A program made the translations under genes and the position numbers. A DNA stretch of 64,000 nt from Streptomyces sp. RKND-216 (lineage in GTDB: Bacteria > Actinomycetota > Actinomycetes > Streptomycetales > Streptomycetaceae). Every line of letters starts with the position of its first letter. The stretch's first letter is position 1. Shown piece by piece: positions 42,730 to 45,784 of this stretch. The stretch is taken from contig NZ_SSBQ01000002.1 in the NCBI RefSeq assembly GCF_004795255.1, forward strand, positions 3,683,501 through 3,747,500, in the 5' to 3' direction. The notes below the pieces were generated by a model. It saw nothing but the letters and a program-made list of their open reading frames with translations, was not told the DNA's origin and did no database searches.

Positions 42730-44073
42730 TCAGCGCACCACCGTGAACGCCTCGGCGCTCCGTGCCGGCCGTGCCTTCGGTGCGCCCGCCGCGTGACCGA
42801 TCGCCACCGCGCCCATCGGCTCCCACGTCCCGGGCAGCTCGAGCACCTCGCGCACCACGTCGCGGCAGAACATCGTCGAGGAGATCCACGCCGACCCGAG
42901 CTGCTCGCCGGCCAGCGCCACCAGGAAGTTCTGGATGCCCGCACCGTGGGCGACGACGAACATCTCGCGTTCGGCGGTGGCCCGACGTGCGTCCGGGTAG
43001 GTGTGCGACCCGTCCGCCACCATGCACGGCACCGCCAGGTAAGGCGCGTTGCGCAGCACGTCGCCGCGCCGCACGCGCTTGGCGATGCTCTCCTCGCTCC
43101 TGCCGTCGGCCTGCAGGTCGGCGATCCAGGCGTCCCGCATCGCGTCCAGCAGCCGCAGCCGCGACGCCTCGGACTCCAGCAGGACGAACCGCCAGGGCGT
43201 GGTGTGGTGCGGCGCGGGTGCGGTGACGGCCGCCGCGACGGCCCGGCGCACCGCCGCGCCGTCCACCGGCTCGTCGGTGAACTCGCGCACGGTGCGCCGC
43301 CCGGTCACCGCCTCCCGTACGGCCTCGGAGGTGCCGAGCCGGAACATGTCCAGCGCCGCGTCCCGTACGAGGGGCTGCGCCGTGGTGTCCCGGTCTCCGG
43401 CGCCGAGCACGTGCCGCCCCATGCCGCGCACGACCGCGACCGGTCGCCCGTCGGCCTTGCCCTTCACCAGTTCGCCAGCCGCGGCCAGTTCGTCGCCGAC
43501 GGCGGTGACCGTGACGCCCAGCGGATTGCCGTACGAGTCGACGCCGCCGCGCAGATCCTCCAGGACGCGCACGCCGGCCGCGCCGATCGCCACGTCGGTT
43601 TGCCCCTCGCGCCAGGGGCGTCCGAAGGTGTCGGTGACGACGACGCCCACTCGCGCGCCCAGTACGTCGTACAGGCCGTCCCGGATACGGGCGGCGGAAT
43701 CGTCGGGGTCCTCGGGCAGCAACAGCACGGTTCCGGCCGGGGTGTTGGACGCGTCGACGCCCGCGGCGGCCATCACGAAGCCGTGCCGGGTCTCGACGAT
43801 CCGCGCAGGCCCGCGTCGTGCGACGACGCGTACGGTCTCGGCGTCGATGGAGGCCTCCCGGTCGTCGGCGGCGACCGTACGGCCTTCCGCCTTGCTGACG
43901 ATCTTCGAGGTGACGACGAGTACGTCGCCGTCCATCAGGCCGTCGAGGCCCTCGGCCGCGGCCGCTTCGGCGATCAGCTTCACCAGGTCGTCGCCCTCGC
44001 GCACCTCGGGGATTCCGGGCAGCGCCCAGACGCGGTAGCCGGGGCGGGCGTCGCGGTGCTCCGGCGCGGTCAT
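42730..44073 (-). CDS. fbiB: Bifunctional coenzyme F420-0:L-glutamate ligase / nitroreductase-fold FMN reductase
   Basis: 447 residues, two domains as in mycobacterial FbiB. Residues 1-245 are the CofE ligase that adds glutamates to F420-0 ([51 protein letters not shown]). Residues 255-447 are a nitroreductase-like FMN domain ([46 protein letters not shown]) that reduces dehydro-F420-0. ATG at 44073 overlaps the stop of cofD by four bases, so the two are coupled. Confidence 0.93.
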
Positions 44074-45029
44074 GCCCGCACCTCCTCGGCGAGTGCCAGC
44101 GCGTCCGACGCCATCCGTGCGGTCGCCTCCGGGTCGCTCATCATCAGCGGCACCGCCCGGCAGCGGATGCCGGCCTCCTCGACCTCGTCGACCGCGCCCG
44201 CGTCGACCGTGTCGACGAGCCACCCGTCGAGCAGCCCGGAGCCGTAGTGCCGGGCGACGGCCGCGGCGGTGGACCGGACGCCGATCGCGGCGAGCACCTT
44301 GTCGGCCATGCCGCGGACCGGCGCGTCACCCACGATGGGGGAGAGGCCCACGACCGGCACGCCGGCCTCGGCGATGGCCTCCCGGATGCCGGGTACGGCG
44401 AGGATCGTGCCGATGCTCACCACCGGGTTCGACGGCGGGAACAGCACCACGTCCGCCTCGGCGATGGCCTCCAGGACACCGGGCGCGGGCTCGGCCTGGT
44501 CGGCGCCGACGGGCACGACGGCCTGCGCGTCCGGCTCGGCGCGCAGCCGGATCCAGTACTCCTGGAAGTGGAGCGCCTTGCGTTCGCCGCCCTCCTCGAC
44601 GGCGACGTGCGTCTCGACCCGGTCGTCCGTCATCGGAAGCAGCCGCACGCCCGGTCGCCAGCGCGCGCACAGCGCCTCGGTGACGGCGCTGAGGGGATAG
44701 CCGGCGCCGAGCATCTGCGTGCGGACGAGGTGCGTGGCGACGTCCCGGTCGCCGAGCCCGAACCACTGGGGCTGGACGCCGTACGCGGCCAGCTCCTCCT
44801 TCACCGCGAACGTCTCGCCCGCGCGGCCCCAGCCCTGCTCCTCGTGGATGCCGCCGCCGAGCGTGTACATCACGGTGTCGAGGTCGGGGCAGATCTTCAG
44901 CCCGAAGAGGTGGATGTCGTCCCCGGTGTTGCCGATGACGGTGATGTCCGCGTCCGGTGCGGCGGACTGGAGGCCGCGGAGGAAGCGGGCGCCGCCGATA
45001 CCCCCGGCCAGAACCACGATGCGCTGCAT
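44070..45029 (-). CDS. cofD: 2-phospho-L-lactate (phosphoenolpyruvyl) transferase of F420 biosynthesis
   Basis: CofD/FbiA, 319 residues. It joins the activated three-carbon phosphate unit to Fo, making (dehydro-)F420-0. Motifs: [49 protein letters not shown] and [21 protein letters not shown] at 45029 has no obvious ribosome-binding site, so it may be leaderless; the frame is open upstream through the cysteine dioxygenase gene on the same strand but that is not coding in this frame. It lies 44 bases after the dioxygenase gene and may be co-transcribed with it. Confidence 0.93.
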
Positions 45030-45073: not shown

Positions 45074-45607
45074 TCAGCGGGCGGTCGTCGCGCCGTCCGG
45101 CCGCACGGCCGTGGCGGGTACGGCTGCGGAGGGCACGGCCTCCGGGCGGACGGGGGCGTGCATGGGCATCTGCGTGAGGCCCGGGAAGTAGACGTGCAGG
45201 GTGACGGCCGGTTCGAGGCCGGTGTTGACGGCCTCGTGCACGTAGCCGGGGGCGAAGACCCGCTGCGCGCCGGACCGCAGCCGTCTGGTGCCGCCGCGGG
45301 AGTGCTCGGTGAGCTCGCCCTCCAGCACGGTCAGCACGCCGGACGACGGGCCGTGGTCGTGCCGTCCGCTGCCCTGCCCGGGCAGCCAGCTGAGCAGCCA
45401 CACCTCGTAGCCGGGGCCGGTGCGCAGCCGGTGGTACCAGCGGGTGGTGGCGTCGTAGCGCACCAGCGGCGCCCACGACGCGCGGTCGGCGGCCAGGGTG
45501 CGGGCCAGCCCGGCGAACTCCGCGACGGTCGTCGGGTGCGCGGGCGCGGGCTGGAGGAGGTGGCGGACGGCGAGCAGGTCGCCGGCGATCTGGACGTCGC
45601 TGTTCAC
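45074..45607 (-). CDS. Cysteine dioxygenase family protein
   Basis: Cupin-fold iron enzyme, 177 residues, predicted to oxidise L-cysteine to cysteine sulfinate. The iron-binding histidines are visible: His83 and His85 in GSGRHDHGPSSG and His124 in GYVHEAVN. The substrate carboxylate Arg is probably in WYHRLRTGPGYEVWLL. GTG start at 45607; AAGG lies upstream at about 11 bases. It is preceded by a Cys-rich leader ORF (45662-45748) and followed by cofD. Some cupins of this group act on other thiols such as 3-mercaptopropionate. Confidence 0.88.
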   Translation of the reverse strand: MNSDVQIAGDLLAVRHLLQPAPAHPTTVAEFAGLARTLAADRASWAPLVRYDATTRWYHRLRTGPGYEVWLLSWLPGQGSGRHDHGPSSGVLTVLEGELTEHSRGGTRRLRSGAQRVFAPGYVHEAVNTGLEPAVTLHVYFPGLTQMPMHAPVRPEAVPSAAVPATAVRPDGATTAR

Positions 45608-45661
45608 GGGGAAAGTCGCCTTCGTGCCGGAGGGGAGGGGGGTGTGGGTACCTCGGGTGCC

Positions 45662-45748
45662 TCAACAGCAGTGACAGCGACAGTGACCGGACGCAGCACC
45701 AGGGATCCCGCCGCGGCGGGCCGGAGTGAGCGAGCGGGTCACGGGCAT
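45662..45748 (-). CDS. Cysteine-rich leader peptide upstream of cysteine dioxygenase
   Basis: Short ORF of 28 codons: ATG at 45748, stop TGA at 45664-45662. The peptide starts MPVTRSLTPARRGG and ends GHCRCHCC directly before the stop, so four of the last six codons are Cys (TGT, TGT, TGC, TGT). It lies 54 bases upstream of the cysteine dioxygenase GTG, same strand. A TTGACA -35 box is 30 bases upstream and no ribosome-binding site precedes the ATG, which suggests a leaderless transcript; in-frame GTGs at 45754 and 45742 are other starts. The composition strongly suggests a regulatory leader that senses cysteine (Cys-tRNA supply) or possibly metal. Not proven to be translated. Confidence 0.65.
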   Translation of the reverse strand: MPVTRSLTPARRGGIPGAASGHCRCHCC

Positions 45749-45755
45749 GGGCACA

Positions 45756-45784
45756 AGGAGACCGGAGCCCGTGGGCGGTGTCAA
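45756..45784 (-). promoter_or_regulatory. Promoter of the leader peptide - cysteine dioxygenase unit
   Basis: On the minus strand a perfect TTGACA (45784-45779) is followed after 17 bases by TCTCCT (45761-45756), a weak -10 hexamer. The start point would fall at about the leader ATG. Confidence 0.5.

Follow-up and report, generated by a model that had tools for sequence, protein, structure and literature searches.

A conserved cysteine-rich leader ORF ahead of cysteine dioxygenase in Streptomyces, a candidate translational attenuator

A short, unannotated cysteine-rich ORF lies directly ahead of a putative cysteine dioxygenase (CDO) gene in Streptomyces sp. RKND-216 and recurs, together with its promoter geometry, in nearly all loci examined from the genus. 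Between its Cys codons and the beginning of the dioxygenase gene there is complementarity, which depends on the choice among synonymous codons in the leader. The reading we prefer, with a probability of roughly two in three, is that the leader is a translational attenuator: a ribosome paused on its Cys codons when Cys-tRNA is scarce would free the CDO start. We analyzed a stretch of 64,000 nucleotides (henceforth, the window) of this 5.6 Mb genome, together with CDO loci of related genomes.

A leader ORF upstream of the cysteine dioxygenase gene

The initial annotation had pointed to a 28-codon, Cys-rich ORF on the minus strand, 54 nt ahead of the CDO gene (counted from the leader stop to the GTG at 45607). 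We confirmed both its coordinates and its C-terminus, GHCRCHCC followed directly by the stop. The coding elements of the locus are listed below.

45662..45748, minus strand: leader ORF of 28 codons, MPVTRSLTPARRGGIPGAASGHCRCHCC, plus TGA; ATG at 45748, TGA at 45664–45662 (direct reading and ORF list)
45665..45682, minus strand: candidate sensor codons TGT CGC TGT CAC TGC TGT (Cys Arg Cys His Cys Cys)
45604..45699, minus strand: second frame, its TGA overlapping the GTG of CDO; judged incidental
45619..45623, minus strand: Shine–Dalgarno (SD)-like GAAGG of CDO (direct reading; SD-like sequences were also tallied across relatives)
45074..45607, minus strand: CDO gene with a GTG start, the putative target of the leader (Pfam CDO_I, PF05995, 63.6 bits, cut-off 23)

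The downstream gene is a cysteine dioxygenase as judged by its CDO_I domain, with a putative substrate; the best PDB match of its protein (41.5 bits) was 8qfr, labelled cysteine dioxygenase, from an entry group that we take to be that of an ergothioneine dioxygenase. In the window, the gene is divergent from a whiB-family gene and followed by cofD (fbiA; 44070–45029), which begins about 44 nt past CDO, so that the attenuator might extend its reach to coenzyme F420 biosynthesis. The second frame had been suggested as a device for translational coupling. Its TGA does overlap the CDO GTG, but we rejected the coupling role since a comparable ORF was present in just 68 of 141 loci.

The Cys run had also been called extremely unlikely to arise by chance. 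This was too strong a claim from the window alone, where three of the 1165 stops having eight open codons upstream were preceded by at least four Cys within those eight codons; the other two Cys-dense stops were out-of-frame reads within long ORFs. The argument from chance being weak in a single window, conservation was needed as the deciding evidence.

A first set of 111 loci consisted of 80 CDO loci kept of 563 confirmed ones (labelled Streptomyces, with one labelled Streptomycetaceae) and 31 loci from two genome searches. A leader was present within 450 nt of CDO in 109 of them, the two misses being the second CDO gene of the source genome (L002) and a locus whose Cys-rich frame runs off the extracted stretch (L014). 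For an even sample of the genus we then used 150 genomes including that of the window, each with some CDO match, which gave 147 orthologous loci; three genomes with distant CDO matches only (G008, G010, and G050) were left out. Leaders were called when an ORF of 15–60 codons with at least three Cys started at an ATG that lay 36 or 37 nt past the first TTGAC base. The survey upstream of CDO genes for short Cys-rich ORFs, which had been proposed along with the initial annotation, recovered the leader in 141 of these 147 Streptomyces loci (including six with odd tails, L144, L185, L191, L194, L219, and L222, which were retained), separated from CDO by a gap of 48 to 477 nt. The six loci without a leader were L209, L213, L214, L221, L226, and L227. 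Five of them and a further locus (L209, L213, L214, L226, L227, and L273) kept the TTGAC, lacked the Cys-rich leader, and showed a different CDO N-terminus (MDNDN, MYSDN, or MNNDN), a pattern consistent with joint loss of the leader and of the pairing sequence described below.

Elsewhere in the family, where we sampled 16 other genera and asked for at least two Cys in the last 15 codons of the leader, 50 of 52 loci had one; the misses were a second gene copy (L308) and a locus of 128 bases only (L280). The peptides had diverged strongly, while the spacing of the promoter, the type of start codon (ATG or GTG), and the Cys-rich end were kept. On the strength of this conservation we regard the Cys-rich leader ORF as real. 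What is conserved does not look like a peptide: substitutions at codon positions 1, 2, and 3 numbered 4036, 3695, and 2593 (1097 pairs) and thus were not concentrated at third positions. The C-terminal residues differ from species to species (for example CCCCCPSC, CRCSSCRSH, or CCRCS), and so does leader length.

Promoter geometry of the leader

Upstream of the leader ORF lie two promoter-like elements, the first of which had been noticed in the initial annotation and is indeed present at 45784–45779.

45779..45784, minus strand: −35 element TTGACA; in 141/147 loci a TTGAC occurs 36 or 37 nt before the ATG of the leader
45756..45761, minus strand: weak −10-like TCTCCT, with 7 nt between its end and the leader ATG (direct reading)

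The two are separated by a 17-nt spacer in the window. A consensus scan of the window reported no sigma-70 promoter, TCTCCT being a poor −10 box. Aligned across 99 distinct loci, the base preceding the leader ATG was C in all 99 and the base at −8 was T in 98; no ribosome-binding site was seen upstream of the ATG. The leader transcript is probably leaderless, starting at or near the leader AUG, since the promoter spacing, the lack of an SD sequence, and the invariant C before the ATG all fit such a start.

Leader Cys codons are complementary to the start of CDO

At the RNA level, the Cys codons of the leader (such as CGCUGUUGCUGUUC) show complementarity to the opening codons of CDO (GAACAGCGACAGCG). 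In the window, the two strands of the resulting helix are as follows.

45674..45682, minus strand: upstream strand of the predicted helix, UGUCGCUGU, within the sensor codons; 9 bp including one G-U pair, in both the predicted MFE and the centroid structure
45595..45603, minus strand: downstream strand of the same predicted 9-bp helix, ACAGCGACG, CDO codons 2–5

Over 138 distinct loci of the genus the best contiguous helix measured 6 to 19 bp, most commonly 14 bp (45 loci); that of the window has 9 bp. The helix was weakened when the leader was recoded with synonymous codons: the natural version was better at p ≤ 0.05 in 112 of the 138 loci, and none of 200 recoded leaders equaled that of the window. 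Recoding the CDO start alone gave significance in 81/138 loci (window, p 0.155), and permuting the order of the leader codons in 88/138 (window, p 0.06).

Other measures returned null results. The whole leader of the window folded no better than its shuffles (z 0.07), and of 134 pairs compared by intermolecular duplex energies with loops, only 25% favored the natural over the recoded leader at p ≤ 0.05; looped duplex energy was a poor measure in this GC-rich RNA, and the contiguous helix was adopted after that result. Neither did leaders match the CDO of their own species better than that of others, be it by duplex energy (4887 of 5000 permutations did at least as well) or by helix score (28.29 versus 28.07 when permuted; 660/5000 permutations). 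A finer signal emerged at CDO codon 5. Where this codon is AAC rather than AGC, the opposing leader base is usually U rather than C, with a tally of C-G 43, U-G 12, U-A 10, and C-A 2 (Fisher p 1.1e-4) from the 93 of 140 distinct loci that have this CDO start, less 26 without the leader motif. The AAC type of CDO start likewise scored 29.4 on average with leaders from AAC species, versus 24.6 with leaders from AGC species. As most of the AAC species may be relatives of one another, we read this covariation as a trend and not as a series of independent events. In the other genera of the family, a significant contiguous helix was found in only 4 of 46 testable loci (of 52, six being dropped for want of a leader or a recognizable start).

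The choice of Cys codon bears on the same point. Leaders of the 141 same-genus loci use TGT and TGC in a ratio of 547:167. For comparison we took the longest plus-strand ORFs from 80 named loci, counting only those with third-position G+C above 0.85; here the ratio was 6:57. TGT thus makes up about three quarters of the Cys codons in leaders and one tenth in nearby long ORFs. Within the helices, the third base of the Cys codon was U opposite A in 265 cases, C opposite G in 89, and U opposite G in 18, and the preference for U opposite A fits the excess of TGT. This excess persists outside the genus (153:69), where the helix is mostly absent, and pairing may therefore not be its sole cause.

Ribosomes on the Cys codons are predicted to open the CDO start

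To model translation of the leader, we folded the RNA with a 30-nt stretch masked to mimic the ribosome—the footprint of which was taken as 30 nt—and computed the cost of opening the CDO start. Across the 141 loci, the median cost was 17.5 kcal/mol for unmasked RNA and 17.5–18.3 kcal/mol with the ribosome at earlier positions on the leader. It came to 11.8, 10.8, and 12.1 kcal/mol with the A-site on the first, second, and last Cys codon, respectively, and to 13.0 kcal/mol at the stop. In 102 of these loci, masking at the stop lowered the cost by over 2 kcal/mol.

This release, too, hinged on codon choice. In a random draw of 90 of the 140 distinct loci, with the window included, masking the Cys codons released 6.42 kcal/mol in natural leaders versus 0.68 kcal/mol in recoded ones, the natural value being larger in 80/90 (Wilcoxon 8e-15). 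For the window, the cost fell from 16.1 to 10.7 kcal/mol, whereas five recoded versions started at 9.6–11.9 kcal/mol and gained at most 0.5. The other genera showed a smaller effect in the same direction (2.01 versus 0.16 kcal/mol when recoded; natural larger in 32/46, p = 9e-4).

We further resolved the release by A-site position in 64 loci. It averaged 5.73 kcal/mol on Cys codons, 3.15 at the stop, and 0.71 on other codons, and the best Cys codon exceeded the stop in 58 of the 64. Up to five codons before the first Cys of the cluster the release was about zero or negative; it climbed over the last three codons ahead of the cluster, reaching 3.7 kcal/mol just before it. In the window, release set in three codons ahead of the first Cys and amounted to 7.7–9.1 kcal/mol on the sensor Cys codons and 8.5 at the stop, a profile too even between the two to separate a response to low from one to high cysteine. 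In silico, then, an RNA structure covers the CDO start, and a ribosome occupying the Cys codons relieves it. Sequence and folding agree with the initial proposal of an unannotated regulatory leader, leaderless by its promoter geometry, that would act on CDO through its Cys codons.

Cys-containing leaders in other families and at other sulfur genes

A class search returned 51 matching genomes outside the family, from which 40 loci were taken. In one genus of another family (f19/g53; six of eight matching genomes examined), CDO was preceded at a distance of 43–50 nt by a minimal leader, MRCCC in five loci and MQSCR in one, predicted to fold over the SD sequence and start of CDO. Placing the A-site on codon 3 (Cys in five loci; in L345, a Ser preceding Cys) lowered the opening cost by 3.3–8.9 kcal/mol in 6/6 loci, as computed for the natural leaders alone, and masking at the stop lowered it by a further 0.2–1.8 kcal/mol in all six. 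The larger release at the stop in these six loci, like the equal release in the window, weakens the argument for a low-cysteine response. Elsewhere outside the family, leaders scored above the cut-off of NCBIfam NF042934 in L318 and L340, a similar one in L353 fell below it, and four loci (L326, L348, L349, and L354) had Cys-containing leader-like ORFs by eye. Two scans yielded no leader judged convincing in the remaining loci.

With regard to other sulfur genes, 15 loci around sulfite reductase, rhodanese, JAB/CysM, and second CDO genes of the source genome contained no plausible leader with at least three Cys (a GTG ORF in L364 was discarded for lack of a −35 element), and scans of its paralogous CDO gene likewise showed no leader. 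We observed NF042934-type leaders in this genome before a sulfite reductase gene (L357:704-784) and before the CysO–CysM genes (L371:2018-2110), so that its sulfur genes have Cys-containing leaders of two kinds. Second CDO genes of other genera had HVDL-type leaders, above the NF042934 cut-off in L310 and below it in L315 and L316.

Direction of the response and alternative explanations

The attenuator that we favor would operate as follows. Transcription would begin at or close to the leader AUG, and ribosomes would load on this 5′ AUG. With ribosomes fast or absent, initiation at CDO would be blocked by pairing of its first codons with the leader Cys codons; with Cys-tRNA(Cys) scarce, a ribosome waiting for it, a Cys codon in the A-site, would cover the pairing strand and keep the CDO start accessible. 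Rho may in addition terminate leader RNA early where this C-rich RNA is not translated. Given that release is greatest, on average, on Cys codons, CDO is predicted to be switched on at low Cys-tRNA.

Published expression data point the same way. In the table of an RNA-seq study of S. coelicolor under H2O2, SCO3035, listed there as hypothetical, rose 6.5-fold alongside cysNDCHI, ssuABC, cysA, cysM, metNIQ, and SCO5772 (PMC4991794). SCO3034 is given as whiB (PMC4255298) and a whiB-family gene adjoins CDO in the window, from which we infer that SCO3035 is the ortholog of CDO; its rise with the cysteine-biosynthesis genes would place CDO among the genes that are on at low cysteine. According to the same study, the induction was lost in an hsr mutant (PMC4991794), making a transcriptional cause possible. 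We put the low-cysteine sign ahead of the high-cysteine sign, though not as proven.

The initial annotation had assumed the reverse logic, with plentiful cysteine bringing ribosomes to CDO, and induction by high cysteine is the alternative that survives best, even if we consider it unlikely. Here the helix would stay open, and CDO would be made, either because ribosomes run smoothly through the Cys codons or because a high level of free cysteine provokes a TnaC-like arrest at the stop. This would suit an enzyme that degrades cysteine, for which a low-cysteine signal is odd and counts against the sign that we prefer. The CDO start is opened by a ribosome at the stop as well, as the mean over the 64 loci shows, and the release there equals that of the Cys codons in the window and slightly exceeds it in all six f19 loci. 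In Streptomyces SCUT-3, moreover, cdo1 and cdo2 are reported to rise 50.2-fold and 8.3-fold on feather medium (PMC7181669); either may be the leader-bearing copy. Three observations speak against a high-cysteine switch: the advantage of the best Cys codon over the stop in most of the 64 loci, the wide variation of C-terminal residues and leader length, unlike an arrest peptide, and the induction of SCO3035 together with cysteine-biosynthesis genes (PMC4991794).

It seems improbable to us that Rho-dependent transcription attenuation is the principal device, with the ribosome position governing Rho loading on the C-rich gap RNA and the helix being secondary. Such a device would be in line with a gap RNA of 48% C (141 loci), with the lack of an intrinsic terminator in the window, with the change in SCO3035 mRNA level (PMC4991794), and with the proposal of Rho for mycobacterial cys leaders in the work of Seliverstov et al.; C-rich gaps are, however, expected anyway in a GC-rich genus, and the complementarity between Cys codons and CDO start, along with its loss on recoding, would be left unexplained. 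Finally, the Cys/His-rich C-terminus in the window had raised the prospect of a small metal- or redox-binding protein with a function of its own, which we deem very improbable as the Cys/His pattern differs among species, no conserved peptide is apparent, and the constraint found is one of RNA pairing.

Discussion

The attenuator that we propose has its closest counterpart in mycobacteria, where, as Canestrari et al. reportedly described in 2020, ribosomes stalled in the Cys tract of polycysteine leaderless ORFs block a structure that hides the RBS. Like these, the CDO leader is Cys-rich with a run of Cys near its stop and co-oriented upstream of a cysteine-metabolism gene; by its geometry, it is probably leaderless too. 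Unlike these, it belongs to another sequence family and genus, precedes a gene for the degradation of cysteine, and carries Cys codons that themselves pair with the first codons of the target. It shares with NCBIfam NF042934 (cis_reg_atten), NF042936 (Ms4527A), and NF042933 (Ms5788A) the nature of a Cys-containing leader ORF, the first being a general 'putative leader peptide' model and the other two mycobacterial, but neither the window leader nor the four CDO leaders of relatives that were compared matched any of the three; in Pfam and NCBIfam overall, the window leader matched no family, and an Rfam scan of the region upstream of CDO gave a single match far below the gathering score. Our best reading is thus that the leader works like the mycobacterial polycysteine leaders while belonging to a leader family that has no match in Pfam or NCBIfam.

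As an ORF preceding an amino-acid catabolic gene, the leader also resembles tnaC of the tryptophanase operon, an arrest peptide that senses free Trp. It departs from the arrest peptides tnaC and SpeFL in that its peptide is not conserved, its C-terminal length varies, and its codons pair with the target. As for attenuation of the trp type, a scan of the window revealed no intrinsic terminator between leader and CDO.

Cys-run leaders were already known in actinobacteria (Seliverstov 2005; Shell 2015). In the part of the literature considered here, Seliverstov et al. (2005) describe Cys leader peptides before cys or cbs genes in Mycobacterium, Propionibacterium acnes, and Bifidobacterium longum, with runs of Cys codons close to the stop and no intrinsic terminator, as in the CDO leader; in contrast to the latter, the leaders they report there include none in Streptomyces. 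For S. lividans TK24, the table of eight leader peptides in a reannotation contains no cysteine leader (PMC8079986). The metN leader in the same table, annotated there as dependent on methionine, has three Cys in its terminal residues RCMCRRMCAF (PMC8079986) and may in fact sense cysteine, metNIQ being co-induced with cys genes in S. coelicolor. Within the titles and abstract openings that we searched, the CDO leader was not described.

Three leader designs now stand before CDO genes: the long Cys-rich one of the Streptomycetaceae, the five-codon MRCCC of another family, and the NF042934 type elsewhere. Tentatively, and with less than even confidence, we suggest that actinobacterial CDO is a cysteine-limitation gene, on which at least three unrelated designs would independently sense shortage of Cys-tRNA, implying a role in sulfur salvage or repair of oxidative stress as opposed to the disposal of surplus cysteine.

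Synonymous recoding offers a means to separate the peptide role of the leader from its RNA role. If our preferred reading holds, ribosome-sensed control by cysteine would extend from mycobacteria to streptomycetes, and a cysteine-degrading enzyme would stand under an apparent cysteine-shortage switch—so that either the role assumed for bacterial CDO would be overturned or the attenuator would run in reverse.
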